Of a stretch of 64,000 bases of DNA, positions 17,920-35,497 are shown one piece after another; within the stretch, counting starts at the first letter, position 1; the number at the start of each line of letters is the position of its first letter. The DNA is taken from positions 62,001 through 126,000 of the forward strand of contig DUZW01000002.1 of assembly GCA_013349295.1 (NCBI GenBank), given 5' to 3'. Made by a program: the position numbers and the translations under genes. The notes under the pieces are model-generated. The model saw only the letters and a list, made by a program, of their open reading frames with translations, was not told the DNA's origin and did no database searches. The stretch is from Deltaproteobacteria bacterium. Its GTDB lineage: Bacteria; Desulfobacterota; Desulfobulbia; Desulfobulbales; Desulfurivibrionaceae.

Positions 17920-19314
17920 TCAATCGGCAACGACCCGGTTGCGGCCCTGATTCTTGGCTTGGTAAAGAGCTGTGTCCGCCCTTTTGATCAAAATTTCCTG
18001 GTCATCCCCGTCTCGGTAGGAGGTTACCCCGAGACTGACGGTGATGGAAACCTCCTCTTGCACAGCCAGGCGAATTCTTTCCGCTACCTCATGGGCCTCG
18101 GGGAGTCCCGTTTCCGGCAGGAGCACAAGAAATTCTTCCCCGCCGAACCGCACCTTGAGATCGATATCGCGGAGTGTGCTTGCCGCAATCTTGGTAGTTT
18201 CGACCAAGATTTCATCACCGGCGTCATGGCCGTGGGTGTCGTTGAATTTTTTAAAATGATCAATGTCGAACATGATGACGGAAAAAACCGTTCCGGAGCG
18301 TTTTGCCCTGGAAAGATTGTCATGCATGATGATTTCCATATGGCGCCGGTTTGCCAGACCGGTGAGCGGGTCACGCAGGGACAGGGCGCGGGTCTCTTCA
18401 TACAGGCTGGCGTTGTCGATGGCGATGCCGATCTGGTTGCCGAGGGCAATCAACAGCTCCATTTTATCTTTCTCCACCTCCGTGTTGACCGGCAGATAGA
18501 GACAGAGGACGCCGGCCAGGCGATTTTTCGCCTTCAGGGGAATAACGATATGTCCATGGGCTGGAATTTCCGGGTACTGCAGGGTGTGGCGTTTGTCCGT
18601 TTCCGAATTGAGTGAAACAACAATCTCCCCGCTCCGGGCCGCCAGACCGCACAGACAGGTGTCGAAGCCGCAAGTGCGGTGATCATCAAGAAACCTGGGC
18701 ACCACCTCCTGGCCATGCCCCACTTCATGAGCCAAGACAAGCTGTTCATCCTTGAGCAGAAAAAGAGCGCCCCTCTTCTCCAGGCTCAGCATCTCGATGC
18801 AGGTGATCGCTTCCAGGACTTCGGCCAGAGTTTCATCCAGATTCAGGGATTGATTGATTGTTTGGGAAACTTGATACAAAATAGCCAGATCCGCATTTTT
18901 ACGGCGCAGCTCCTCCTGCTCTTTCTTACGCTGGATGGCATAAGTCATGGCACGAACCAGGATTTCCCGCTCGACCTCTCCCTTGATCAGATAGTCCTGT
19001 GCTCCCCGCGTAACCGCTTCCATGCCGATCCCCTCGTCGGCCAGGCCGGTGAGTACGACAATGGGCGTATTTGGTGCATTCTGCAGCAAAGCGGTAACGG
19101 TTTCAAGCCCCTGGCTGTCCGGCAGGCCAAGGTCGGAGAGCACTACATCGACCTGCTGCTCCCGGATATATTCCAGGCCGGCGCTCAACCGATTGGCATG
19201 GGCCAGTTCGAAGCAATAGAGCAGGCCGCAGACAGACTCGATCATATCCCGGATGAGGAACACATCATCCGGGTCGTCCTCAATGAGGAGCACTTTGATA
19301 AGCGGATTTTTCAT
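17920..19314 (-). CDS. Receiver-GAF-GGDEF diguanylate cyclase
   Basis: 464 residues. Receiver domain 1-125 with phospho-acceptor D61 (VVLSDLGLPDS), GAF domain about 150-300 and GGDEF domain about 310-464. The cyclase keeps the active site as FGGEEF and an upstream DIDHFKKFNDTHGHDAGD substrate loop, so it should make c-di-GMP. No RxxD inhibitory site is apparent before the GGEEF. The start MKNPLIKV is chosen because GAGGAG stands about ten bases upstream. It is the last gene of a minus-strand signalling operon, eight bases after the receiver gene, so a phosphate signal from the large kinase upstream is likely. Confidence 0.92.
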   Translation of the reverse strand: MKNPLIKVLLIEDDPDDVFLIRDMIESVCGLLYCFELAHANRLSAGLEYIREQQVDVVLSDLGLPDSQGLETVTALLQNAPNTPIVVLTGLADEGIGMEAVTRGAQDYLIKGEVEREILVRAMTYAIQRKKEQEELRRKNADLAILYQVSQTINQSLNLDETLAEVLEAITCIEMLSLEKRGALFLLKDEQLVLAHEVGHGQEVVPRFLDDHRTCGFDTCLCGLAARSGEIVVSLNSETDKRHTLQYPEIPAHGHIVIPLKAKNRLAGVLCLYLPVNTEVEKDKMELLIALGNQIGIAIDNASLYEETRALSLRDPLTGLANRRHMEIIMHDNLSRAKRSGTVFSVIMFDIDHFKKFNDTHGHDAGDEILVETTKIAASTLRDIDLKVRFGGEEFLVLLPETGLPEAHEVAERIRLAVQEEVSITVSLGVTSYRDGDDQEILIKRADTALYQAKNQGRNRVVAD

Positions 19315-19321
19315 TGCTTGC

Positions 19322-19774
19322 TTACTCCTCTGTCGGCAGGGCAACGATTTCCAGCCAATACTCCTTGAGAGTCCGGATGGTTTTTAAAAATTCTTCAAAG
19401 GAAACGGGCTTGCGGATAAAGGAGTTAACCCCGAGTTCGTAGGTTTTGGCGATGTCTTCTTCCGCGTCCGAGGTGGTGAGCACCACCACCGGGATTCGGC
19501 GCAGGTTCGGAAGGGATTTGATCTGCTTGAGCGCCTCCCTCCCATCCATCTTCGGCATATTGAGATCAAGCAGGATCAAGGTCGGCCGAGGCGATTTTTC
19601 CGGTTCCGCGTAAGGCCCTTTCCGCTGAAGATAGTCGAGAAGTTCCTCTCCGTTTTTGACCCGGTATATGGCATTCCGCAAGTGGTATTCTTCGAAAGCC
19701 TCCTGGGTCAGAAGGAAATCATCATCGTCATCCTCGGCAATGAGAATGACCGCCGGTTTCTCAGGACAGTTCAT
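19322..19774 (-). CDS. Single-domain response regulator (Rcp1-like CheY family)
   Basis: 150 residues, one receiver domain only. The acidic pocket is EDDDDD (14-19), the acceptor is D70 (LILLDLNMPKMDG), and the T/S and K of the active site appear in VVLTTSDAEED and FIRKPVSFEEF. The insert KGPYAEPEKSPRP is typical of Rcp1-type receivers paired with bacteriophytochrome-like or HisKA-only kinases. AAGGAAG precedes the ATG. It overlaps the end of the large kinase gene by 14 bases, so it is the likely phosphate acceptor of that kinase. Confidence 0.92.
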   Translation of the reverse strand: MNCPEKPAVILIAEDDDDDFLLTQEAFEEYHLRNAIYRVKNGEELLDYLQRKGPYAEPEKSPRPTLILLDLNMPKMDGREALKQIKSLPNLRRIPVVVLTTSDAEEDIAKTYELGVNSFIRKPVSFEEFLKTIRTLKEYWLEIVALPTEE

Positions 19775-22700
19775 GGCTTGCTTCCTTTTCCTGATGTTGT
19801 AGCGGCAGACGGATAATAAAGGTGGCGCCCTGCCCGACACTGCTGCGCGCCGTTATAGCGCCGCCGTGCCGTTTGACGATCTTTTCACATATGGCAAGGC
19901 CCATGCCGGTTCCCTCGTATTCATCCCGGGCGTGCAACCGCTGGAAGGGCACAAAGATTCTCTCCAGATACTTTTCGTCAAAGCCGATGCCGTTATCAGA
20001 TACCATAATCTCACACCAGCCGTCGACTGTTTCTGTTCCGGAAACGATCACCTTGGGAACCTCGTCCGGCGCCTGATACTTGAGGCTGTTGCTGAGCAGA
20101 TTCTGAAAGAGCTGGCGCATCTGCAGCCGGTCTCCGCATATCCGCGGCAGGCTTCCCACCTCTACCTGGCCATTGCTCAGGGCCAGAAGTTGCTCCAGGT
20201 CGGAGAGAACCTCCCGGACAATCTCCTGGAGATCAATGATCTCAAAGGGTTTCCCTTTTGTGGTTACCCGGGAAAAGAGAAGAAGCCCGTCGATGAGATT
20301 GCGCATCCGACCCGCAGCATTCTGCATCCGTTCCAGATAGTCGAGGCTGCGCTCATCCAGAGCCGGCCCGCCATGTTTTTTGAGGCGATCACCAAAGGCC
20401 ATGACCTTGCGCAGGGGTTCCTGAAGATCATGGGAGGCCACATAGGCAAACTGCTGGAGCTCCTCGTTGCTTCGCTCCAGCTCCCGGGTGAAACGGTTGA
20501 GCTTCTCCTCCGCCTCTTTGCGGGCCCGGATGTCCCTGGCCACGCTGAGCACCATTTTTCTGCCACCCACCTCGATGAGTTTGGCATTGACCTCAAGAGG
20601 AATCCTTGTTCCATCCTTGCAGACATGGGCCACCTCAAACTTGGCATGGCCGTATTCCATCATTTCCCGGGAGCGGTTCGGAAACTTTTCGGCAAACTCA
20701 GGAGCATCGAGATCCTTGATATTGAGAGTCAGAAATTCATCTTTTCCGTAACCGCGCAGCCGGTAGGCCACCTCGTTGGCCTCGATGATGTTGCCCTCCA
20801 GATCGTGGAGAATAATGGTATCGTTGGCCGCGTCAATGAGCTGGGCCTTGAGCCTGATCTCCTCCTCGGCCCGTTTCAGAAGGGTGACGTCGCGGAAAAT
20901 AGTGAGAAAAACATCCCGGCCGCCAAGTTTGATCCTCTTGACCGTAACCACAATGTTTCGCAGCTCGCCATCCTTGCGACGGTGCAAGGTTTCAAAATAA
21001 TCCTGGCCATGTTTAAGAAGGCGCGCGATACGGCTTTGGGTTTCTTCCGGTCTTTCCTTGGCCTCATACTCGGAAACATGCAAACCGGCGAACTCCTCGC
21101 GGCTGTATCCCAGCTGCCGATGCGCGACCTCGTTGAAGGCCATGGGCAAGGCGGTTTCCGGGTCGATAAGACAGATCCCGTCCGGAGATTGTTCAAACAG
21201 GGTGCGGTAACGATTTTCCGCGTCCTTGAGCAAGGATTCCGCCTGTTTGCGTTCGCTGATATCCTCGTAGGTGCCGAGCACGCCATATACATGTCCGGCC
21301 TTGTCCTGTAATGGTATTTTATTGGTCAGAGCCCACAACTGCACCCCGGCGGTTTTGCGTTGCTGCTCCTCAATATTGAGTTGAGGGGTGGCGGATTCCA
21401 TGACCGCCTGATCGACTGCGCGATACTGCTCGGCCTTTTCCCGCCAGGGCATGTCAAAATCACTCTTGCCGACGATCTCCTCCATTGAGGTGAAGCCGGC
21501 GTCCCGCAGGAAGATTCTGTTTCCGCCAAGATAGTTGTCCTGCCGATCCTTCCAGAAAACCCGTTGCGGGATGTTATCGAGAACCGCCTGCAGCATCTGC
21601 CGGGAATAGAACAATTCGCTCTCAACCCTTCTTCTCTTTAAGATCTGCCACATGGAGTTCATATAGAGGGTGAGCTGCCGTATATCCTGGTCGCCGTACG
21701 GCCCCTCCTTGTTCCCCACCCCGATAACCGCGACCACCGTATCCTTATCAAAAACAGGGATGCTCATGTGCCGCCTGATGGGGAAATGCCCTTCCGGTAC
21801 GCCTTTTTTCTCGGCTAATCCGGGATAATCGTTATGGAGAACCGGTTTTTTCGTTCGGACACTGTCTGCCCATACCCCTGCGGAACCGATGGGGTAATGG
21901 GGGGTCTTGGAGGCGTTGCATTTTTCCTGGACGTTTTGAGACCAGGCATGGAGGGCAATAGTGTTGTTTCCCGGGTTGATAAAATGGAGGTAGCCAACCT
22001 CACTTTCGGTAAGTCGGACCGCCTCTTCCAGGGCAAAGCGGGTAAGATCTTCCTCCGATGCCCAGCTCCTCTGGCTCAAATTGAGCAGAGACGACAGACG
22101 CTCTTCGTCCTGTTTGAGCAGCATCTCTATCTTCTTGCGTTCGGTAATGTCTTCGGCAATGGAAAACAGGCGCCGGATGCCGCCGATGGTGATCAACTCC
22201 CCGGCGTAAGAGCAGAACATCACTTCGCCATTCTTCTTCCGGAACCGAAGCTCTTTGCTGGCCAAATATCCCTTGGCCTCGATTTCCCGGCGCATCGGCT
22301 CCCGATACTCTTTGGAATAACAGCCAAGCTCGATGGGGGAACGGCCGATCATCTCCTCCCGGCTGAAGCCCGTGCTCTCCGCAAAGCAATCGTTGATCTC
22401 CAGCAAGGTGCCATCCATGAGATCGCTGATGGCCATCATGATCGGTGCGTTTTTAAAGGCCTTGGCAAACTTTTCTTCGCTCTCCCGCAGGGTGCGTTCC
22501 GCCTCTTTTCGCTCAGTGATATCGAGCACCGTGCCCACCATCCGCATGGGGGCTCCCGCACTATCCACCAGGAGCTCGCCCTGTTCAAGCACATACCGTT
22601 CCCGGCCATCGGGCAGGACAATCCGGTGCTCAATAGCGTAGGGCTTGTGATTGGCCAAGGTGTCCGCCACCGCCTGTTCCACGAGTTTCCGGTCTTGCGG

Positions 22701-24008
22701 ATGGACCGTCTCCAGAAACTTTTCGTAACTGGCAGTAAACGACTGGGGGTCCAGGCCGAATATCCGATAAATTTCATCCGACCACCAGAGAAAGTTACCG
22801 GCGATATCCCAGTCCCAGTTGCCGAGATGGGCGATTTCCTGGGCTTTATCCAGACGTTCCTTGGCTGTTTGCAGCTCCCTGGTCCGTTCAAGAATTTTTT
22901 CTTCCAGATCCTCATAGGCGGCTTGCAACGATTCTTCCGCCTTTCGACGCTGAAAAACCTCAAGCTGCAGCAGCTCGTTATTTTGGTGCAACTCTTTCTG
23001 GGCCTGCAGGAGCTGCATGGTTCGATCATCAAAGGCCCGGGCCAATTCCTCCAGTTCGTCGTTGGTGCCGACCGGACTGCAGGGAACGGCTTTTTGACCG
23101 GCACCGGACTCGCGCACCTTGTCGCACAAACGGAGAATCGGCTGGGCCAGCTGCCCCCCCAGGCGAGAAGCAACCAAGATCGCCGCAACGACAAAAAGAG
23201 CGCCCAGCCCCATCAGGCGCATGACCGCAGTGCGCACCGGTTGGAGAAATTCCTTTTTGGGCACCCCGATTTCAAAGGTCAAGCCTAACTTTTCGACATA
23301 GCTCCCCTCCCCCTCCGTATCGTGCCGATGGAGATGAGTAACGTATTCGAGCCCAGGCCGTTCGTTGGCGGAAAAGAGCAGGGCTTTTCCTTGGTAGAGT
23401 CTGTACAGTCGCGGAGGCTGCGGAGGGAGTATTTCTTTTAGGAGGGCCGCCAGATCGACAAGGATGACAACCGCCCCCTGGGTGGTTTGATAATAATGGA
23501 TGGGCTGCATGATCACGAGCTTCATCTCTTTTTCAATAAGATACGAAGTTTGTGTACCCACAGCCAGGGTTGTCCGCAGATTGGGATGCTGCAAATACCT
23601 GGGCGTTTCCCCGGAGCTTGCATAAATAATATCGCCGGCGAAATCGACCACCGTGGTTTCGACAACAAAAGGGGTCCTGTTGAATTCTTTAACAAAATCA
23701 GGAAGATACAGCGCCCTCCCCTGGGGATCAACAAGACTGTTGGTCACAAATCGGTTCTTGCTGAGCTGCGCAATGTTTTGGCCCAGAAAGGAAAGACGCA
23801 GATCGAGATCACGCAGATAGGCGTGCGCCAAAGCATCAAGCGAGCCCATCTCTTTTGTGGTGATCGCCTGCTGCAGCATAAAAGAGGTGGTGGCGATACC
23901 GACCGCCATGACCAGAACCACAAAAGTGGTGATCTGGCGGATCAATCTTCTCCGCAGCCCCTTGGGAACCATTTGTTTCTGTTTTCTGAATAATGCGGTT
24001 ATGTTCAT
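19761..24008 (-). CDS. Large membrane sensor histidine kinase (extracytoplasmic domain-HAMP-PAS-PAS-GAF-PAS-PAS-PAS-HisKA)
   Basis: 1415 residues. A transmembrane helix (about 25-47), an extracytoplasmic sensor of about 225 residues (Cache-like), a second helix (about 277-298) and a HAMP region are followed by a coiled coil. Then come two PAS domains, a GAF domain, three more PAS domains, HisKA (FAYVASHDLQEPLRKV, phospho-His) and HATPase_c (NLLSNSLKY, DNGIGF, GTGMGLAI). No C-terminal receiver is attached; the next gene supplies one. The start MNITALFR is preferred because AGGAAGGCA precedes it. It directly follows the dual solute-binding protein, which may feed its periplasmic sensor. Confidence 0.93.
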   Translation of the reverse strand: MNITALFRKQKQMVPKGLRRRLIRQITTFVVLVMAVGIATTSFMLQQAITTKEMGSLDALAHAYLRDLDLRLSFLGQNIAQLSKNRFVTNSLVDPQGRALYLPDFVKEFNRTPFVVETTVVDFAGDIIYASSGETPRYLQHPNLRTTLAVGTQTSYLIEKEMKLVIMQPIHYYQTTQGAVVILVDLAALLKEILPPQPPRLYRLYQGKALLFSANERPGLEYVTHLHRHDTEGEGSYVEKLGLTFEIGVPKKEFLQPVRTAVMRLMGLGALFVVAAILVASRLGGQLAQPILRLCDKVRESGAGQKAVPCSPVGTNDELEELARAFDDRTMQLLQAQKELHQNNELLQLEVFQRRKAEESLQAAYEDLEEKILERTRELQTAKERLDKAQEIAHLGNWDWDIAGNFLWWSDEIYRIFGLDPQSFTASYEKFLETVHPQDRKLVEQAVADTLANHKPYAIEHRIVLPDGRERYVLEQGELLVDSAGAPMRMVGTVLDITERKEAERTLRESEEKFAKAFKNAPIMMAISDLMDGTLLEINDCFAESTGFSREEMIGRSPIELGCYSKEYREPMRREIEAKGYLASKELRFRKKNGEVMFCSYAGELITIGGIRRLFSIAEDITERKKIEMLLKQDEERLSSLLNLSQRSWASEEDLTRFALEEAVRLTESEVGYLHFINPGNNTIALHAWSQNVQEKCNASKTPHYPIGSAGVWADSVRTKKPVLHNDYPGLAEKKGVPEGHFPIRRHMSIPVFDKDTVVAVIGVGNKEGPYGDQDIRQLTLYMNSMWQILKRRRVESELFYSRQMLQAVLDNIPQRVFWKDRQDNYLGGNRIFLRDAGFTSMEEIVGKSDFDMPWREKAEQYRAVDQAVMESATPQLNIEEQQRKTAGVQLWALTNKIPLQDKAGHVYGVLGTYEDISERKQAESLLKDAENRYRTLFEQSPDGICLIDPETALPMAFNEVAHRQLGYSREEFAGLHVSEYEAKERPEETQSRIARLLKHGQDYFETLHRRKDGELRNIVVTVKRIKLGGRDVFLTIFRDVTLLKRAEEEIRLKAQLIDAANDTIILHDLEGNIIEANEVAYRLRGYGKDEFLTLNIKDLDAPEFAEKFPNRSREMMEYGHAKFEVAHVCKDGTRIPLEVNAKLIEVGGRKMVLSVARDIRARKEAEEKLNRFTRELERSNEELQQFAYVASHDLQEPLRKVMAFGDRLKKHGGPALDERSLDYLERMQNAAGRMRNLIDGLLLFSRVTTKGKPFEIIDLQEIVREVLSDLEQLLALSNGQVEVGSLPRICGDRLQMRQLFQNLLSNSLKYQAPDEVPKVIVSGTETVDGWCEIMVSDNGIGFDEKYLERIFVPFQRLHARDEYEGTGMGLAICEKIVKRHGGAITARSSVGQGATFIIRLPLQHQEKEASHELS

Positions 24009-24055
24009 TGCCTTCCTATAATGACGGCGCCATTGCAGCATGTGCGTCGACAGGT

Positions 24056-26176
24056 CTATTGCTTGAAAAGCGTTACCCCTAGATCCTCTTCGCTCAAGGC
24101 TTCATGGCGCTGTTCGGTAAATGGCGGCGAGTACAGCTTCACCACCCCTTCATGACGAGGAATACGTTCCAAAGCCCGCACAATCGACTCGGGGGCAAGA
24201 TTCTCACTGTTTTTCACCCCCGTGGCCAGAAGGCAAATGAGATCATAGGAGTGGGCCGCGGCATCGACCATGGCATCGTGTTTTAACAAAGTCGCATGAT
24301 AGCGGCTCTGGTAGCGCTCCATGAACTCCTTCTTTTTTTTGCTCATATTCACGGCGGCGGAAAATGTTTGCACATAGCGCACATCCATCGGCGCACCGTT
24401 TTGGCCCCACCTTTTTTCAAGATCAGCGCCGATATTTCCACCAAGGAGCAAAAGTGATACTCTGCTGGAAAGCTTTGCCAGATCCCGGGCAACGGTGGAT
24501 ACTTCCTGGTTTTCCGCAGCCAAGACAATGACCCTGGCTCCGGCTTGCACCATGCGTTGCAGTTGCGGCAGCATGGTATCCTGCTCCTTGTCAAAGGACT
24601 CAACGGCGCAGGGTTTCATGCCCCTTGCGGCAAGAAACGCGCTTAACTCCTTGCGAACGCTTCCCCCCCAGGCAGTATTCTCAAGCAGAAAGCCGATGTG
24701 AGGGGAAATCGCCAAGCCATTTTTCAGCAGAACCGGGCCTGCAATCTCATCCTGCGCTGCGATGCGGAAGAGATAATTCGGTCGGTGATCGTTTTTCACA
24801 ATCTCCGAGGCAGATGCCCAGGGCACAAGATAGACCATCTTCTGTTCATGGATCAGAGCAAGATTGGCCAGCATAACCGGGCTTCGTTGCCCGCCCACAA
24901 CCGCCAGCAGATTCGGGATGGCGCCAAACTTTTTGATGTTTTGCCGAGCCCTGGCGGCAATACCGGCGTGGTCCATGGCCAGGATGCGCACCGGCTTGCC
25001 GAAAATTCCCCCCGCCAGATTGATCTCTTCCACCGCCATCTCCATGCCGCGCTTGATGGCAAGGCCTGTTTGCGATGAGGCAAGGCTCAGGTCGGCATTG
25101 AGACCGACGATGAACCCCTCCTGTTTTCGTTGAGGGTGTTGTTCGTTGAGATACTGTTCCGTCTTGGCGAGAATATCCTCACCGATAACATCCCGGTATT
25201 TTTCGCTGATATGGGCAGTAGCCTCCCTAAACCGCGCGATCTCCGCCTCGGAGAGGGTGATAATCTCTGTGCCGGATTTTTGGATGTTTTCAAGAAATGT
25301 TTTTTCCCTGGCCTGGGTTTCAGTCCGCTCAAAAGCGGTCAGCTCCCGCGCGGTGGAGAATAAGATCCCCTGCAGATCCTGGGGCAGCTGCTCATACACC
25401 TTTTTGCTGAAGGAAAGCACATAGCACAGGTAAGCATGATTGCTTAAGATCAGGTGCGACTGCACCTCATGAAAACGCATGTTGTGAATGGCCACCAGGG
25501 GATTTTCCTGGCCATCCACCACCCCGTCTTTCAAAGCCTGATGGGTCTGGTGAAAATCGATGGGAACGGGATTGGCGCCAAAGGCCTTGAACTGATCGAG
25601 AATCATCTGGCTTTGCATGACCCGGATATTCAGACCGGTAAAGTCTTCCGGGCCGTGGATGGGCCTGTTGGCGGTAAATTGCTTGAAGCCGTTTTCCCAG
25701 AAGGTCGCCCCTATCAGGCCGTGGGCGGGAAGCTGGGCCAGCAGCAAGGAGCCCACCTCGCCGTCGAGCAGGGCATAGGCGTCGTCACGATCCGGAAAGA
25801 GAAACGGCAGATCGGCATACTGCATGGCCGGCGCCAGGGTGCTCAGCTTAGCTGTGGGAGTCAGGACGATATCCAGCTCCCCGGCCCGTGCCATCTCCAC
25901 CATCTGGTTGTCATTGCCCAGAGCCTGATTGGGGAAAATTTCAACCATCAACCGGCCGCTGGATCTTTCCTGGACCAGGGAGGCAAATTTCACGGCAGCA
26001 AGATGCATGGCGCTGTCTTCCGTGATATTGTGACCGAAGCGCAGTGTGTACACCCCTTTTTTTTCCGGTTGGAATCCTGCCTCGTTACGATTTTTTTGAA
26101 ACGAGACGAGGAGAAGAACGGCTGTTACCGCCACGATAACCGCCCCTGCAATCCCGACCTTCAAATTTTTACCCAT
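24056..26176 (-). CDS. Fusion of TRAP-type (DctP) and ABC LIV-type solute-binding domains
   Basis: 706 residues. An N-terminal membrane anchor or signal (residues 5-25) leads to a DctP-type domain (about 41-345): YTLRFGHN at the start, the conserved substrate-carboxylate arginine R185 in GLNIRVMQS, and the DGVVDGQENPL motif. A second domain (about 354-700) is a periplasmic binding protein of the Leu/Ile/Val type, with FIVGLNADLSLASSQTG and INLAGGIFGKPV. No TRAP or ABC permease gene lies in the window. It is followed by a large membrane kinase, which suggests sensing rather than uptake. The start at 26176 is chosen because GAGAGG precedes it; an ATG at 26200 would add eight residues. Confidence 0.88.
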   Translation of the reverse strand: MGKNLKVGIAGAVIVAVTAVLLLVSFQKNRNEAGFQPEKKGVYTLRFGHNITEDSAMHLAAVKFASLVQERSSGRLMVEIFPNQALGNDNQMVEMARAGELDIVLTPTAKLSTLAPAMQYADLPFLFPDRDDAYALLDGEVGSLLLAQLPAHGLIGATFWENGFKQFTANRPIHGPEDFTGLNIRVMQSQMILDQFKAFGANPVPIDFHQTHQALKDGVVDGQENPLVAIHNMRFHEVQSHLILSNHAYLCYVLSFSKKVYEQLPQDLQGILFSTARELTAFERTETQAREKTFLENIQKSGTEIITLSEAEIARFREATAHISEKYRDVIGEDILAKTEQYLNEQHPQRKQEGFIVGLNADLSLASSQTGLAIKRGMEMAVEEINLAGGIFGKPVRILAMDHAGIAARARQNIKKFGAIPNLLAVVGGQRSPVMLANLALIHEQKMVYLVPWASASEIVKNDHRPNYLFRIAAQDEIAGPVLLKNGLAISPHIGFLLENTAWGGSVRKELSAFLAARGMKPCAVESFDKEQDTMLPQLQRMVQAGARVIVLAAENQEVSTVARDLAKLSSRVSLLLLGGNIGADLEKRWGQNGAPMDVRYVQTFSAAVNMSKKKKEFMERYQSRYHATLLKHDAMVDAAAHSYDLICLLATGVKNSENLAPESIVRALERIPRHEGVVKLYSPPFTEQRHEALSEEDLGVTLFKQ

Positions 26177-26499
26177 ATTTTGCCTCTCATTTTTCCGCAA
26201 GCAGACCCTACAGAAAAAAATCGCCTTTACCCTTCAAGCTCCGCTGGCAAGGTAATCTCATTTTGATAATATTGCCCCAGACTCAAAGGTTATTCAAGCA
26301 GATCTCTTCTTTTCTCGAAGGGAACGGGATCTTGGCTTCATGCTTGAGACAACTAACATGCGGGGGACAAAAGGATTGCGGAGGTGAGCCTGCGGGGATA
26401 GGATTGCCTCCCCGACCATGGGTGGCAAGCTGTCTGGCCGACTGCGTGCGGGGTGTCAACGGCAAGGGAAGATTGACTCCGCTGCATCCGAGGTTTTGT
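26177..26499. other. Intergenic gap, no gene seen
   Basis: About 323 bp between the LuxR-type regulator stop and the dual solute-binding protein start. Two opposing short open frames overlap across most of it and neither has a ribosome-binding site or protein-like composition. A promoter for the downstream genes could lie here. No clear hairpin terminator is visible. Confidence 0.45.
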
Positions 26500-27183
26500 T
26501 CAACACTCTGTCCGTGACCAGAGTTCCGGATCGACAACCCCGATCTTCACGGCATAGCGCACCAGGGCCATGGGCTCATGGATATCGAGTTTTTTGACGA
26601 TATTGGAGCGATGTTTTTCCACGGTTCTTGGGCTCAGATAGAGCATCGTGGCTATCTCCTTTGTCGGATGCCCTTCGACCACCATGCGGAAAATCTGCTG
26701 TTCCCGCTCGGACAAACTGTCATAGCCGGTTACTGCGGGATCTTCGACAGGCGTCGGGAACAGGTATCTGCGGATCACGGCGGTATTGAGTTTGGGGCTC
26801 AAATAATAGTGACCGGTTGCGGCCCTTAAAATGGCCGCAATAACCTCATCCCCCGAATCGGTCTTCAAGACAAAGCCGACGGCGCCCGAGGCCAGCGCCT
26901 GATGGACATAGGCATCTTTATCGTACATGGAAAAAATTACCACCTTGCTGTCCGGCACCGCCTCCTTGAGCAAGGGCACCACTTCAAGACCGTTTAACCG
27001 GGGCATGGAAATATCCAGCAGAATGACATCGGGCAGGAGCTTTTTTGCCTTGGGTACAACCTCCCCGCCATCCGCCGCCTCGCCAACCACCTCCATCCCG
27101 GGATGATTTGCAATAAGCTGCCGCATGCCGTGGCGTACCACGGCATGGTCATCCGCCAGCAAGATCTTCAGCTTACCTTTCAT
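26500..27183 (-). CDS. NarL/FixJ-type response regulator
   Basis: 227 residues. Receiver domain with DD at 11-12, acceptor D57 (VILLDISMPRLNG) and K in FVLKTDS. The C-terminus has a LuxR-type helix-turn-helix (YDSLSEREQQIFRMVVEG, TKEIATMLYLSPRTVEKHRS). It should bind DNA as a dimer when phosphorylated. The ATG at 27183 has GGAG nearby and overlaps the end of the upstream kinase by 11 bases, so the two form a NarX/NarL-like pair. Confidence 0.93.
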   Translation of the reverse strand: MKGKLKILLADDHAVVRHGMRQLIANHPGMEVVGEAADGGEVVPKAKKLLPDVILLDISMPRLNGLEVVPLLKEAVPDSKVVIFSMYDKDAYVHQALASGAVGFVLKTDSGDEVIAAILRAATGHYYLSPKLNTAVIRRYLFPTPVEDPAVTGYDSLSEREQQIFRMVVEGHPTKEIATMLYLSPRTVEKHRSNIVKKLDIHEPMALVRYAVKIGVVDPELWSRTEC

Positions 27184-29419
27184 GCTGCAACTCCGCATAC
27201 GCGCCATCCTTGATCATGAAAATGGAAGAGTCCTCTTGTCCCCGTTCCAGCCACCTCACCTCCGCCCGGATGGTTGTCCCCTCTCCCGGACGTGAACGTA
27301 TGGAAAGAGTTCCGCCAATCGCCAGCATTCTTTCATGCATGCCGCGCAAGCCGATGCCGCCATGGGCGCCCGAAGGGAGATCGGACAGGCATGCCGGGTC
27401 AAAGCCAAGGCCATCATCGGTTACGGTCACGATGAGGGAGGGGTAGCTGAAGATCAAGCGAACCGCGACGTTTTTCGCCCGGGCATGTTTGCCGATATTG
27501 GTCAATCCTTCCTGAACCACCCGATACAGGGCGATTTCATATTCAGGCAGTATTTTTCTCGGGGCGCCTGATATTTCCATGGAGGTTTGTATGGTCGGGA
27601 GGCGACCGGCGAAATCGTGCAGGCCCCATTCCAGAGCCGGCACAAAGCCGAGGGTGTCCAGCAGATCCGGCCTGAGTCTGTTTGTGGCGCCGCGAATAGC
27701 GGCGCCTATCTTATCGATAAATGCAACGACTTGAGTGAACTCCGGGGAATTTCCTCCACCCAGGGAGGTGACTTTTTTCTGGAGCGCATCAACCTGATGG
27801 CGGAGAGAAGGCAGAATCTGACCGAATTCATCATGCAGATCCCCGGCGATTCGTTTTTGTTCTTCTTCCGCCGATTTAATGATCCGCCGGGAAAGATGCC
27901 GGATTTTTTCTTCCGCAAGCTTTACCTGGGTTATATCGCGGTGCACACAGTGCATGAATTCCAGCTCCTTGAAGGAGAGTCGGTTTCCCCGGCATTCGAT
28001 AAAATTTCTTTGACCGTCCGGACGCACCCAGGAATACATCCCCTCGCATCGCTCCTTGGGCTCAACGCTGTAAAGAGGGCAAAGCGTCGAACGGCCCGCT
28101 GTTTCCCCCCTGGCTTCCTTGCGGATTCTGATATCGGAAAGAGAGAGAAGCTCGGCCTTGGATCTCCCCGCCATCCCGAGATAGCTCGTGTTACAATTGA
28201 CAATTCGTATCTCTTCTTTCTTTTTGGACAATTCGTAGATGCTGATCCCATCCGTGCTGCTCTCAAAAATCATGCGATAACGGGATTCCGATTCCTGCAA
28301 CCTGTCGAGGACTTCCATGTAATGGGTGATGTCCTCGGCAATACCGACCTCGCGGTATTCCTTGCCGCTCTGGTCGCACAGAACAAATATCTTGGCGCGA
28401 ATCCAGCGGATAACTCCGTCCGCCCGGATTATCCGGAACTCCAGGACGCGCTCTCGAGAATTCGGATAAAAATGATTTGTCCGCAGCCGGTCGAGATCCT
28501 CGGGATGGACCCCATCCCGCCAGGAATCATGGTTCAGATAGAGACTTTTACAGCTTCTTCCCCAGATTGTCTCGTAGGCCGGGCTGATGTAAAGCATCTG
28601 CCCGGCAGGCAGGCCGCGGAGCCAGAAAACGCTGGTGAGATTCTCTGCTATCTGCCGGAACCGTTCCTCGCTTTCGCGAAGTTCCGCTTCCGTTTCCTTT
28701 TGTTTTTCAATGGCATCGACCAATTCGGCAACCTTCTCCTCCAACTCCCTGGTCTGCTCGGCAATCTGCCGTTCCTGCTCTTCGTTGGCCTGCCACAATG
28801 CCTCCTGTGCATTGTGCAACGCTGTCATGTCGCGGGCAATACCGTTGATGTGAAGGAGCGTGCCGTTTACGTCGTAATGAAAATTGCAGGTCCAGTGGAG
28901 AAAATGGGTTTTACCGTTTCGGCCCAGCTGCCGGTTTCCCCAGACGACAACTTCACGGCGCTCCTTCAGCCAGTCTTGAAAAGCCATTTGCGTTTCCGAG
29001 CGGTCTTCCGGATGGACAAAGTCGAAGGCCGAGAGTCCGATAGCTTCTTCCGGCGTAAGACCGAAGATTTTTTGCGCGGCGTGATTGACAAAGAGAATTT
29101 TTCCCTGGGAATCCACCTGGGCGACAAGGTCTTCGGTTCCCTCGACAAACTCACGATATCTTTTTTCACTTACGGATAATTCTTCTTCAAGTTGCAGGCG
29201 GCGGCCCATCTCGCTCGACAGCATGGCATTGGTTGTTTGCAGGTCAAGAGTCCGCTCGGCAATCAACTTTTCCAATCCGGCCTGGTATTTCGCCAACACC
29301 CTGGAGAAGAAACCGACATCCGGAACAAGGGAATCCACCTTTGCGGCGAACAAGGAACAACGTTCCTCCAATTCCCGCACCCGTTGTTCCAATTCGGCAT
29401 AGGTCGGCTTTTCGGCCAT
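27173..29419 (-). CDS. Cytosolic PAS-domain histidine kinase, NarX/HisKA_3 type
   Basis: About 748 residues with no transmembrane segment. An N-terminal coiled coil leads to three PAS domains (first near EGTEDLVAQVDSQGK, second near ENLTSVFWLRGLP, third near FESSTDGISIYELS), a HisKA_3 dimerisation region (RIAGDLHDEFGQ, with phospho-His) and an HATPase_c (VVQEGLTNIGKHA, VTDDGLGFD, GGIGLRGM). It should phosphorylate the LuxR-type regulator encoded next. The ATG at 29419 is preferred over 29425 because CAGGG stands six bases from it. Confidence 0.92.
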   Translation of the reverse strand: MAEKPTYAELEQRVRELEERCSLFAAKVDSLVPDVGFFSRVLAKYQAGLEKLIAERTLDLQTTNAMLSSEMGRRLQLEEELSVSEKRYREFVEGTEDLVAQVDSQGKILFVNHAAQKIFGLTPEEAIGLSAFDFVHPEDRSETQMAFQDWLKERREVVVWGNRQLGRNGKTHFLHWTCNFHYDVNGTLLHINGIARDMTALHNAQEALWQANEEQERQIAEQTRELEEKVAELVDAIEKQKETEAELRESEERFRQIAENLTSVFWLRGLPAGQMLYISPAYETIWGRSCKSLYLNHDSWRDGVHPEDLDRLRTNHFYPNSRERVLEFRIIRADGVIRWIRAKIFVLCDQSGKEYREVGIAEDITHYMEVLDRLQESESRYRMIFESSTDGISIYELSKKKEEIRIVNCNTSYLGMAGRSKAELLSLSDIRIRKEARGETAGRSTLCPLYSVEPKERCEGMYSWVRPDGQRNFIECRGNRLSFKELEFMHCVHRDITQVKLAEEKIRHLSRRIIKSAEEEQKRIAGDLHDEFGQILPSLRHQVDALQKKVTSLGGGNSPEFTQVVAFIDKIGAAIRGATNRLRPDLLDTLGFVPALEWGLHDFAGRLPTIQTSMEISGAPRKILPEYEIALYRVVQEGLTNIGKHARAKNVAVRLIFSYPSLIVTVTDDGLGFDPACLSDLPSGAHGGIGLRGMHERMLAIGGTLSIRSRPGEGTTIRAEVRWLERGQEDSSIFMIKDGAYAELQHER

Positions 29420-30010
29420 GAGCATCCCTGCATGTCGGAGATGGAAACCGGGGCGACAGTTTTGTTAATGACTATCAGTCTTCCCGGTTGAAAAATTACA
29501 GAAGGCAAAAAAATCCCCTCTCCCCATGCGGGATAGGGGGAGGGGGAACGTGCCGGCCATGATGCCATCGGCTGCTTCACCCACCCCCCGCAAGGGAGAA
29601 AGAGCCTCATGCAAAAAGCAAATCAAACATTACTGAGTAACTATTAAGCCATCGTCAAAAATCACATGGTCGTTCTAGGTAGGGCCAGATGGCATAAGGA
29701 GCCGTACAGTAAGGCAACATAACCGGCCATGTCGTTTCTGAACGGCTCCTAAATATTGTGGATGAGAAAAATTATTCAGTCAAGGGGGGGGTGAGTAATA
29801 AAATTGCTGAGAAGCCAAAGAGTTAAAAAAACGACCGGTCTCAACCGTCACCATTCATGCGTAATCTCCCCTGCGGGAATACGTAGCTCCTCTTATATAT
29901 TTTTGCTCACGTCTTTCTCTACAATCAAATCAGAATCGATCCCGGCTCCCGAATATTCACCCAAAAATCCACAATAATCTGCCGGAATCACTGACGGGGA
30001 GGAAAAACCA
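29420..30010. other. Intergenic region with divergent promoters and a degenerate G/C-rich repeat
   Basis: About 590 bp between divergent genes. Positions about 29514-29605 hold C-rich then G-rich tracts and TTCACCCACCCCCC, which resemble the repeat at 34779-34820. No coding pattern is visible in the remainder. Confidence 0.5.
29514..29605. repeat. Degenerate copy of a C-rich/G-rich dispersed repeat
   Basis: The left part runs CCCCTCTCCCC, short centre, GGGGGAGGGGG. Further on TTCACCCACCCCCC matches the flank of the copy near 34780. It is less regular than the two identical 28-base copies at 34793 and 38943. Confidence 0.4.
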
Positions 30011-31822: not shown

Positions 31823-34093
31823 ATGTTTAAGAATATGAAGATAGGCATGAAGCTCGGTTTGGGGTTTGGTGTGGTACTGACTCTAATGCTGATTGTGGGA
31901 GGGATATCTTTCGGCAAGCTTCAGGAGCTGGGAAATGACAGCGAGAAACTGGCTGAAGATATGTGGCCAAAGGCCCAGATGGCCTATGCAATTCAGGGGG
32001 ATCTCAACCTGGTGGCCCGCGCGGTGCGAAACATCCTGCTCAATACGGATGAGGCAATTCAACAAAAAGAGCTGACCAGGATCTCGGAGGCGGATAAGGA
32101 TATAGAAAAAAACCTTGAAGAACTGCACAAGGTAGTCCGCAGTGATGATGGCAAGGCTGCTCTGAAAGCCGTTGACGACACCAACAAAGCGTACGACACA
32201 GAGCTGAAGAACATGCTGGCCCTTGAGGAAGCACACAAGAGGGACGCGGCAATAGCTCTGCTTTTCGGCAAGTTTCGCGAGGCACAGACTGCATACTTGG
32301 GGGCGGTTGAAAAGCTGGTCGAGCATCACGCCGAAGAGATGCATAAGGTCGGCAGCGAAGCAGTGGCCACGGCAGCAATGGCGGAAAAAATCGTCATGAG
32401 CATCAGCATCGTTGCCTTACTGCTCGGCGGCATAATCGCCTTTGCGGTAACCCGCAGCATCACCAAGCCGGTCAGCGCCTGCACCGAGGCGGCCAACAAG
32501 ATTGCCGCCGGCAACACCGATGTAACCCTGGACACCAGCGGCCATGATGAAACCGGTATGCTCCAGGTGGCCATGCACAAGATGGTTGTGGCGATCAACG
32601 CTCTGGTGGCCGATGCCAAGATGCTCGGAGTTGCCGCGGTGGAAGGCAAGCTGGCCACCCGGGCCGATGCCTCCAAGCATCAAGGCGAATTCAAAACGAT
32701 CATCGAAGGGGTCAACAATACCCTGGACGCAGTGATCGGCCCCTTGAACGTGGCCGCTGAATACGTGGACCGGATCAGCAAGGGCGACATCCCGCCCAAG
32801 ATCACCGATGCATACTGCGGCGACTTCAACGAGATCAAAAACAACCTCAACGGCTGTATCGAGGCGGTCAACGGCCTGGTCATCGATACCAAGATGCTCT
32901 CCCAGACCGCAGTGGCGGGCGAACTGGCCACCCGGGCCGACGCCGGCAAGCACCTGGGCGATTTCCGCAAGGTGGTGGAAGGGATCAACAATACCCTGGA
33001 CGCGGTGATCGGCCCCTTGAACGTGGCTGCCGAATATGTGGACCGCATTGCCAAGGGCGACATCCCGCCCAAGATCACCGACAACTACAACGGCGATTTT
33101 AACGAGATCAAGAACAACCTGAATTCCATGGTTGATAACCTCACCAATTTCGCGGTCCATTGCCAGGAGGCGGCGGAGCAGGTTGCCGCGGGCAGCGATC
33201 AGATCAGCGCTTCCGCCTCGGATATGAGCCAGGGCGGAACCCAGGCTGCCGCATCCATTGAAGAGATCTCCAGCGCCATGGAGGAGATGAGCAGCACGGT
33301 GGCGCATACCGCCGACAATGCCCGGCAGACCGCCTCCATCGCAACCAAGGTGGCCGTCGATGCCAAGGAGGGCGGCGAGGCCATGGTGGAAACCGTTGCC
33401 GCCATGCGGAATATCGCGGAAAACATCCTGATTATCGAAGAAATTTCCCGGCAGACCAACATGCTGGCCCTGAATGCCGCCATCGAGGCGGCCCGAGCCG
33501 GGGAACACGGCAAGGGCTTTGCCGTGGTTGCCGCCGAGGTACGCAAACTCGCGGAAAGAAGCCAGAACGCGGCCAAGGATATCGGCAGCATGGCGGGATC
33601 GAGCGTCCAGATCGCGGAAAAAGCCGGAACCCTTATCGCAAAAATGGTGCCGGAGATCCAGAAAACAGCGGATCTGGTCTCGGAAATCAATGCCTCGGCC
33701 AGTGAACAGGCCCAGGGCATCGCGCAAAACGCCAAGGCAATCGAGCAGCTCGATCAGGTGATCCAGCAGAATGCCGCGGCCAGCGAGGAGATGGCAGCCA
33801 CCAGTGAAGAATTGTCCAGCCAGGGGGCGCAGCTCATGGAAACGGCCTCTTTCTTCAAAATAGAACGCAATGCGGGCAAGGCAAAAAGCGCCGCCCGGCC
33901 GCAGCAGGGCAGCAGGCCCGCAGCCCGCTTGAAAGTGGTGGGAAAAGGGCTGCCCAAGCTCCAAGAAACTGGGGCGGTGCTCTTGAACCGACAGGTTGTG
34001 GACGAAGACAAGGGGAAGGCCACGGCGGGTTTTCAAGTGGCCCTGGAGGAAACGGTGCCTGATACCGAATTCGCCAGATATCAAACCAGTTGA
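31823..34093 (+). CDS. Methyl-accepting chemotaxis protein with tandem HAMP-like repeats
   Basis: 756 residues. One N-terminal transmembrane helix, an extracytoplasmic four-helix bundle (about 35-190), a second helix (about 195-215) and HAMP, then two 91-residue HAMP-like units (residues about 257-438) and a methyl-accepting domain with the hairpin [33 protein letters not shown]. The long C-terminal tail is Ala/Arg-rich and ends in FARYQTS without a clear CheR tether. AGGGAGG precedes the ATG. It is followed by CheW, so it is part of a chemosensory array. Confidence 0.93.
32591..33136 (+). repeat. Two tandem 273-bp in-frame repeats in the MCP gene
   Basis: Units 32591-32863 and 32864-33136 encode 91-residue copies. 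Both include [16 protein letters not shown] and [10 protein letters not shown] in the same order with long identical DNA stretches. They are poly-HAMP-like units inside the MCP. Confidence 0.85.
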
Positions 34094-34143
34094 GCGGGGC
34101 ACATAAACGGAGCGTTGCTTGCTTACCTGCAAAGGAGATTATC

Positions 34144-34689
34144 ATGACAGCATTAAAATCCGAGGAAAGCATGAGTAATCAATATCTGACCTTTACCCTG
34201 CGCGACGAGGATTTTGCCATCGATATCGGCAAGGTCCGCGAGGTGCTGGATATGACCACCATGACCAAGATCCCCCAGATGCCTGCTTATATCAGCGGGG
34301 TGATCAACCTGCGCGGCAATGTCGTGCCGGTGCTGGATTTGGGCTACCGGCTGGGCATGAAGCCCGTCGTGCCGGGGGTAAACACCTGTGTGATGATCGT
34401 GGAAACGGAAATCGATGGCGCCACCGTGTCCATGGGCGCCATGTCGGATTCGGTGCAGATGGTTCTGGACATCCAGGCCACGGACATCGAGGCGGTACCG
34501 CGCATGGGATCTAATATCAGCACCGATTTCATTGCCGGCATGGGTCGGCATGATGACAAGTTTCTCATCATCCTGAATATCGACAAGGTCCTGGCCCAGG
34601 ACGGGGAAGACCTCTCCCTTCTCCTCGACCTGGACACCGCCTTGGCTTCGGAGCCGGCAACTCAGGCGGCGGAAGGTGCGGCTGCATGA
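34144..34689 (+). CDS. cheW: CheW chemotaxis coupling protein
   Basis: 181 residues. YLTFTLRDEDFAIDIGKVREVLD and VINLRGNVVPVLDL are the CheW signature, with an SH3-like double barrel expected. It couples MCPs to CheA. AAGGAG stands seven bases before the ATG at 34144. The C-terminal tail of about 20 residues is Ala-rich. It lies 50 bp after the MCP; no cheA is present in the window, so the partner kinase must be encoded elsewhere. Confidence 0.93.
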   Translation: MTALKSEESMSNQYLTFTLRDEDFAIDIGKVREVLDMTTMTKIPQMPAYISGVINLRGNVVPVLDLGYRLGMKPVVPGVNTCVMIVETEIDGATVSMGAMSDSVQMVLDIQATDIEAVPRMGSNISTDFIAGMGRHDDKFLIILNIDKVLAQDGEDLSLLLDLDTALASEPATQAAEGAAA

Positions 34690-34993
34690 TCGTTTCCGGG
34701 AAAATCGGGGCAGGCATGCCCCCCTGCGGGGAGAATCATGGCGGGGTGGATTGCCTCTGAAAAGTCGCCGGGTTGAGTTTCACCCACCCCCCAGCCCCCT
34801 CCCGTCAAGGGAGGGGGAGCTTGTTTCGCCGGACGAGGGAGAAACGTAATGTTTACTCTAGAAATGGAATGAATCACACGGAATCATATCAGCAAAGATA
34901 TTCGCTCATCCCAAGACTTGTCGAAGGAACATATCCATACCCTCTTGATTGCAAGACGGAATTCCATACCTTTTATGAAGGTGAACAGGTGAG
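34690..34993. other. Intergenic region carrying a REP-like repeat
   Basis: About 304 bp between cheW and the first receiver gene. It contains the repeat at 34793-34820 and G-rich/C-rich tracts around it; no gene is seen. A receiver-gene promoter may lie in the AT-richer part near 34880-34980. Confidence 0.5.
34793..34820. repeat. REP-like palindromic repeat, copy A
   Basis: Arms CCCCCTCCC and GGGAGGGGG form a perfect 9-bp hairpin around GTCAA. Identical over 28 bases to copy B at 38943-38970. Confidence 0.75.
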
Positions 34994-35497
34994 ATGATGA
35001 AAAAGCACATACTGGTGGCTGACGACGACACCCTGCTGGCGGACATGATCAGCCGTTGCCTTACGGCAAACGGCTATACGGTGACCACGGCCAACAGCGG
35101 GGAAGAGGCCTTCTCGTTTCTGGAGGTTCACAGTTTTGATCTGGTTCTCTGCGATATCCACATGGATGGACTGGACGGTTTCGCCGTTCTCGCAGCCTGC
35201 AAGACCATGCACTCCCAAACCAAGGTAATCCTCTGTTCCGGTGACGTGGCTTACGAAGCTGTCAGCAAGGCGTTTCAATGCGGAGCGGACAGCTTTTTGG
35301 CCAAGCCGTTCCTGGCAAGCGAGCTGAAGCATCAGGTCAACCGATATATCGGCCGGGAACAGCCTGCAATCCCTGAAAAAAGAACCTTACCGACCCCACC
35401 GGCACAGTTTGTCAGCCCGGGACGATTCAGTCAACTGATACACCGGCAATGCACAAGCGGAGGAGTCCAGCATGAAACCAAGTATCCTGGTGGTTGA
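34994..35497 (+). CDS. Receiver-domain response regulator
   Basis: 167 residues. Receiver domain with DDD at 10-12, acceptor D54 (LVLCDIHMDGLDG), and Thr/Lys residues in VILCSGDVA and LAKPFLA. The last 40 residues are a proline-rich tail with no output domain. CAGGTGAG precedes the ATG. Its end overlaps the next receiver gene by 26 bases, so the two are co-translated. It probably relays phosphate from the hybrid kinase that follows. Confidence 0.9.
   Translation: MMKKHILVADDDTLLADMISRCLTANGYTVTTANSGEEAFSFLEVHSFDLVLCDIHMDGLDGFAVLAACKTMHSQTKVILCSGDVAYEAVSKAFQCGADSFLAKPFLASELKHQVNRYIGREQPAIPEKRTLPTPPAQFVSPGRFSQLIHRQCTSGGVQHETKYPGG

Follow-up and report, generated by a model that had tools for sequence, protein, structure and literature searches.

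A DctP and LIV-type binding-protein fusion as a probable membrane-tethered co-receptor of a neighbouring dCache-type sensor

The gene at 24056..26176 on the minus strand of the window, by which we mean the whole stretch of 64,000 nucleotides that was analysed, encodes a 706-residue polypeptide joining a TRAP-type DctP domain to a LIV-type (Peripla_BP_6) binding domain. This fusion would be the membrane-tethered, ligand-binding co-receptor of a dCache-type sensor encoded next to it, a reading to which we give a probability of about 0.85. Sequence comparison strongly supports this role as the external portion of a signalling receptor, as opposed to a transporter component, and bears on its domains, the gene order, the conserved partner, the near-absence of permeases, the pocket residues and the anchor pattern.

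The fusion ORF is uninterrupted and starts with an ATG at 26176. Pfam places the DctP domain at residues 47-327 (25196..26038, minus strand; E 9.5e-88) and Peripla_BP_6, the domain of the LIV-type (HAAT) family, at residues 357-678 (24143..25108, minus strand; E 8.3e-24), both far above the curated cut-offs and both in agreement with a sequence-only reading of the window, which had proposed this fusion and had pointed to R185 and to a DGVVDGQEN motif, each of which is found in the translated DctP half. NCBIfam also supports the DctP assignment; none of its LIV models reaches its cut-off on the other half. An AlphaFold2 model computed from the 64-row fusion alignment (mean pLDDT 91.1, pTM 0.85) consists of a first helix (residues 2-31) followed by two clam-shell domains, and is less certain at residues 31-40 and in parts of 580-640. 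The top fold matches of the model are TRAP binding proteins (4ovs, E 1.8e-30), and the best 60 PDB sequence matches of the fusion are TRAP DctP binding proteins, 4ovs, 7bbr and 9dsy being of this kind; by sequence, the closest solved relatives of the LIV half are the LIV-type proteins 4mpt and 4q6w (E 2e-21). No promoter or terminator emerged when 26100-26560 was scanned for them.

Relatives were collected from species-representative genomes by a scan with peptide patterns of the DctP half, which returned at least 543 sequences, of which the best 80 were kept; 65 of these, including some truncated at a contig end, match both halves, and the other 15 are standalone DctP proteins. Adding the window itself plus L032 and L033, and treating L034 as identical to L045, brings the number of distinct fusion loci to at least 68; L045 (the contig of L034) and L163/G250 (the contig of L042) were left out as duplicates, and the 64-row fusion alignment omits L089, L094, L101, L104 and L045. 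The listed carriers belong to Desulfobulbales, Magnetococcales, SAR324, Campylobacterota, beta- and gammaproteobacteria, one Nitrospinaceae and others, and many are metagenome-assembled genomes (MAGs), with Dechloromonas denitrificans, Zoogloea oleivorans and Oceanospirillum beijerinckii among the cultured ones. In the groups to which the window belongs, four full fusions, that of the window included, were found in 193 genomes of its order, five in 257 genomes of its class, and in 395 genomes of its phylum, searched at E 1e-90, the only full fusion is that of the window, the other four matches being single halves. No full fusion came up in the order-level search among the 16 further members of the genus of the window, and the nearest fusion relatives sit in another family of the order. 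Transfer or repeated loss is likely.

The partner is a membrane histidine kinase of 1426 residues (19761..24041, minus strand) with a dCache-like input region, PAS, GAF, HisKA and HATPase domains, separated from the fusion by 14 bases and lying downstream on the same strand; the large membrane kinase announced by the sequence-only reading as the next gene is thus indeed there. The same gene order recurs in G056 (L032) and in Desulfobulbaceae UBA2276 (L042), whose fusions are 77% and 76% identical to that of the window, respectively. Among the matches listed, the next same-strand gene encodes a membrane sensor in all 63 loci with downstream DNA, the five without it being L059, L076, L090, L094 and L101. 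Since the scan was keyed on peptides of the DctP half only, this partner was not selected for. In 59 loci of the scan the two genes overlap or touch in 35 cases, are 1-50 bases apart in 21 and lie further apart in three. By Pfam, and among the matches listed, the 63 partners comprise 42 histidine kinases and 21 GGDEF or GGDEF-EAL proteins, the latter including L033 (GGDEF-EAL); the tally sums one set of 28 rows (18 kinases, 10 GGDEF proteins) and another of 35 (25 kinases, 10 GGDEF proteins), minus a duplicate and plus L064, whose partner is split into two ORFs and was counted as GGDEF-EAL.

What the partners have in common is their N-terminal region, which matches dCache_1 at E 0.01 or better in 51/62 of them. 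The match of the window kinase is weak and under the curated cut-off (E 0.00034), but its residues 1-400 are modelled as a dCache-type fold (pLDDT 90.1) resembling periplasmic domains, including those of DctB and sporulation kinase D. The arrangement thus has both features of the LuxPQ and NspS-MbaA kind of receptor, a binding-protein gene beside a membrane sensor gene and a periplasmic domain of the dCache type in the sensor. Upstream of the fusion gene and 323 bases from it, a second kinase and a LuxR-type response regulator form a pair on the same strand (26500-29425), and at 31823-35497 on the plus strand a chemotaxis-type region with receptor-like and CheW-like ORFs and receiver proteins was recognised by eye.

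The N-terminal helix of the fusion (residues 2-31 approximately; 26084..26173, minus strand) is a probable membrane anchor, as judged from the model helix and from a hydrophobic stretch followed by no A-x-A motif. A strong N-terminal hydrophobic stretch is present in 62/62 fusions with enough N-terminus, and a strict A-x-A after it in 14 of these 62 versus 19/19 readable standalone DctP controls, in a crude pattern test for which 62 of the 64 fusions, but only 19 of 33 control loci, were readable. A lipobox is present in a single fusion, L059. With the hydrophobic stretch kept and the cleavage motif mostly absent by this crude pattern, the data suggest that the protein is tethered, as opposed to shuttling freely; the 14 fusions with an A-x-A speak against this. 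The sequence-only reading had spoken of a two-input periplasmic sensor. Its sensor part is well supported by the sensor neighbour in every locus with downstream DNA and the scarcity of permeases, and "periplasmic" is better replaced by membrane-anchored and periplasm-facing on the strength of the anchor test, while two inputs are compatible with the observations and no more.

Our working model is as follows. The fusion would be held in the inner membrane by its N-terminal helix, with both clam-shell domains facing the periplasm; the DctP domain would bind a carboxylate and the LIV-type domain would provide a second putative ligand site. Through one or both domains the fusion would dock on the dCache-like region of the adjacent kinase, and ligand-driven closing would alter the kinase, whose phosphate could then pass to the products of two genes following on the minus strand. 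The first is a receiver-only response regulator (19322..19840; its start codon is uncertain and the long form overlaps the kinase gene), the second a response regulator with receiver, GAF and GGDEF (diguanylate cyclase) domains (17920..19344), in which a GGEEF motif and an RxxD five residues earlier were read by eye. The physical contact, the ligands, the sign of the signal and c-di-GMP as the end of the pathway are elements that we infer.

At the other loci the output varies. Besides the partners that are themselves GGDEF or GGDEF-EAL proteins, we inspected the products of 23 genes, selected from 35, that follow a kinase-type partner; 22 of them carry a receiver, nine HD_5 and two GGDEF. With a third of the partners of the GGDEF or GGDEF-EAL type and few GGDEF proteins behind kinases, c-di-GMP turnover is a frequent output of the module, not a universal one. 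In the Magnetococcales loci L047, L078, L082 and L086, the hybrid kinase precedes a run of at least one further receiver-bearing gene, and kinase or HD domains occur in some of these.

The pocket residues of the DctP half are strongly conserved. W160, K165, R185, E224 and H247 are identical in 64/64 aligned fusions and N225 in 62/64, and all six are also present in the aligned sequence of 4ovs; the half thus carries the DctP domain with its conserved arginine. The domain very probably binds a carboxylate, the ligand most likely being a small dicarboxylate. In the LIV half, W453 and W503 are each kept in 61/64 aligned fusions and a serine or threonine at position 432 in 58/64, three positions that would lie near the pocket by comparison with LivJ. 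The LivJ glutamate that holds the amino group appears to have no clear counterpart here, and a canonical amino acid is therefore a doubtful ligand for this half. An aromatic acid, as in 4q6w, which we take to be a complex with such a compound, was considered and set aside, 4q6w being too distant for the ligand to be transferred. The sequence-only reading had suggested an amino acid or amide, a choice that cannot be read from the sequence.

Both halves have a fold of good confidence and are conserved, and it is plausible that both bind ligands and that their signals are integrated. More specifically, the DctP half might read one carboxylate in all fusions and the LIV half a lineage-specific compound, the dCache sensor integrating the two and the output having been swapped at least three times; we hold this two-ligand gate tentatively, at somewhat below even odds. 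A competing account in which a single half senses, the DctP half binding the ligand and the LIV half serving as a docking piece derived from an older LIV-type protein that already worked with the same family of sensors, or the reverse, we likewise regard as possible, though falling short of an even chance. It gains from the rates and from the covariation of the parts: of the two, the DctP half has evolved more slowly (mean tree distance 1.25, as compared with 2.05 in the LIV half) and is the one that tracks the sensor better, the tree-distance correlation being r 0.74 for DctP and sensor, 0.67 for DctP and LIV and 0.49 for LIV and sensor (each permutation p 0.001, n=59), values that partly reflect shared descent. 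A slower DctP half and a faster LIV half fit the two-ligand gate too. Against a single sensing half, the LIV half keeps a complete fold in the AlphaFold2 model, and W453, W503 and the serine or threonine at 432 are conserved, which a pure docking piece need not retain.

The history of the parts also bears on this choice and, like the correlation of the DctP half with the sensor, is in favour of the co-receptor reading. In trees, the DctP halves of the 64 fusions fall on one side of a branch with SH-aLRT 100 against 34 standalone rows, a limited sample of standalone proteins, and the LIV halves fall on one side against six LIV-only relatives. In 7/7 Desulfobacterota loci read (L035-L040 and L159), a LIV-only gene is followed by a sensor homologous to those of the fusions, matching the model of the fusion partners at E 1e-17 to 1e-44. 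Docking by the LIV half would accordingly be old, as the single-sensor account supposes, and an older pair of LIV-type protein and dCache sensor is likely to have later gained the DctP domain and the anchor. These loci look like a simpler version of the fusion-sensor system; near one of the pairs, at L040:12625-16041, lies an ORF of 1138 residues whose start resembles a secreted or anchored binding domain.

A search of 257 class genomes with the sensor model at E 1e-20 gave 19 matches: five beside fusions and one beside a shortened DctP start, all six below 1e-88, a further five beside LIV-only genes, and eight that cover only the part after the second membrane helix. The one with the shortened start is a GGDEF-type sensor (L158:3936-7243, in G074) before which a DctP-type fusion is cut short after some 90 residues, which may be a remnant or an assembly effect. 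This locus counts against the co-receptor reading, in that the sensor may manage by itself, unless its fusion gene is undergoing decay. On the fusion tree, with 61/64 rows labelled and L033 and L064 counted as GGDEF, the output type switched three times, and three switches are forced by well-supported branches. The output domain has thus changed at least three times, by this sequence-based reconstruction, with the input module kept.

The sequence-only reading had stated that no TRAP or ABC permease lies in the window, and this is borne out for the TRAP and LIV types: the DctM model gave no match there, and BPD_transp_2, the LIV-type permease, gave none in the whole assembly, which is 88% complete. 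The only DctM match of this assembly is on another contig, beside its own DctP-like gene, which is 18% identical to the fusion. Among the matches listed, DctM occurs in 2/68 fusion loci versus 39/42 loci of standalone DctP (23/24 and 16/18), or 30/33 without the nine control loci that seeded the DctM model and hence match it by construction. The flanks were about 1.5 kb in the order-level control loci and up to 10 kb in many fusion loci, and the shorter control flanks work against the contrast. A DctM permease is therefore not encoded alongside the fusion as it is for a TRAP binding protein, nor did we find for the fusion of the window the LIV-type permease, in genome or operon, that goes with a LIV-type binding protein.

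In the two exceptions, L099 and L100, DctM lies about 3.8 kb upstream, comes after another binding-protein gene (TAXI-looking by eye) and is separated from the fusion by a gene on the opposite strand; the genomes hold 29 and 28 DctM matches, respectively. The flanks of 64 scan loci (796 kb) contain 655 ORFs, of which 44 encode proteins with many membrane helices. Scanned singly, 40 of these gave two DctM matches, no BPD_transp_2 and one BPD_transp_1, another ABC permease family, at L116 about 5.6 kb upstream; the remaining four, of approximately 1020-1030 residues, fit five RND-type matches. The sequence-only reading had asked whether homologues always neighbour kinases and never permeases, and had held that homologues usually beside permeases would speak against a sensor: a sensor is there in all 63 loci with downstream DNA, a third of the sensors are not kinases, permeases are nearly and not wholly absent, and the contrary pattern was looked for and not found.

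Permeases encoded elsewhere have to be weighed too. Whole-genome searches covered 50 fusion genomes from the 65 scan loci: DctM is present in 44 and BPD_transp_2 in 39; six lack DctM, 11 lack BPD_transp_2 and three lack both, absences that are soft because many fusion genomes are MAGs. Service to a distant permease is accordingly conceivable for the genomes that have one. TRAP binding proteins touch their permeases, and the anchored DctP half might in principle report on the state of a TRAP permease, so that the kinase would read uptake and not ligand; with a DctM gene somewhere in most fusion genomes this is conceivable, but six of the 50 have no match (mostly MAGs, hence soft) and no permease gene travels with the module, and we consider it improbable. 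Still more improbable is a double transport binding protein feeding TRAP and LIV-type ABC permeases encoded elsewhere. Both domains do come from transport families, both permease types are found somewhere in most fusion genomes, and the genome of the closest named relative among the matches listed (G257) has two BPD_transp_2 matches; nevertheless, the two DctM genes at fusion loci stand beside another binding-protein gene and are cut off by an opposite-strand gene, the assembly of the window has no BPD_transp_2, the sensor neighbour is conserved and the anchor is uncleaved in most fusions. With permeases near-absent at the loci and none of the LIV type in the window's own assembly, we rejected a transport role. 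A chance or decaying, functionless fusion, of which the short DctP start at L158 and the fusion split into two ORFs at L089 might be signs, can be dismissed, given 36-77% identity to the window fusion across 63 aligned relatives, invariant pocket residues and a single clade.

The co-receptor reading has precedents with one binding protein each. LuxP-LuxQ, the AI-2 receptor of Vibrio, likewise relies on a periplasmic-binding-protein fold and on a hybrid kinase, encoded nearby, whose periplasmic domain is of the PAS/dCache type, but LuxP is single, free and of another Pfam family, whereas the fusion has two transporter-class domains and an anchor in one chain. NspS-MbaA, the polyamine receptor of Vibrio cholerae, pairs a binding protein with a membrane GGDEF-EAL protein, as do fusion loci of the GGDEF group; NspS is a single spermidine-type protein and the fusion has two binding domains.

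The Bordetella protein BctC, which binds substrate for a secondary carboxylate transporter, is reported to influence the adjacent sensor BctE and resembles the fusion in this; unlike the fusion, it is TctC-type, unfused and also serves a transporter encoded close by (PMC5812351).

TRAP DctP proteins such as 4ovs, 7bbr and 9dsy share fold and pocket residues with the DctP half, but are standalone, with a cleavable signal and, at nearly all control loci sampled, an adjoining DctQM permease. 4mpt, 4q6w and the LIV-only proteins of L035-L040 and L159 match the LIV half, and the LIV-only genes, like the fusion, precede a homologous sensor; they have no DctP half, and the starts of L035 and L036 look cleavable by eye. 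A search of full-text literature, a weak test with subscription journals mostly outside its coverage, found no report of a sensor architecture joining DctP and Peripla_BP_6. The binding-protein co-receptors known so far have one binding protein each. A conserved, membrane-tied single chain in which the binding protein of a secondary transporter is fused to that of a primary one, and which is coupled to exchangeable outputs, would offer a clean system for asking whether two nutrient signals are computed together by a single bacterial receptor.
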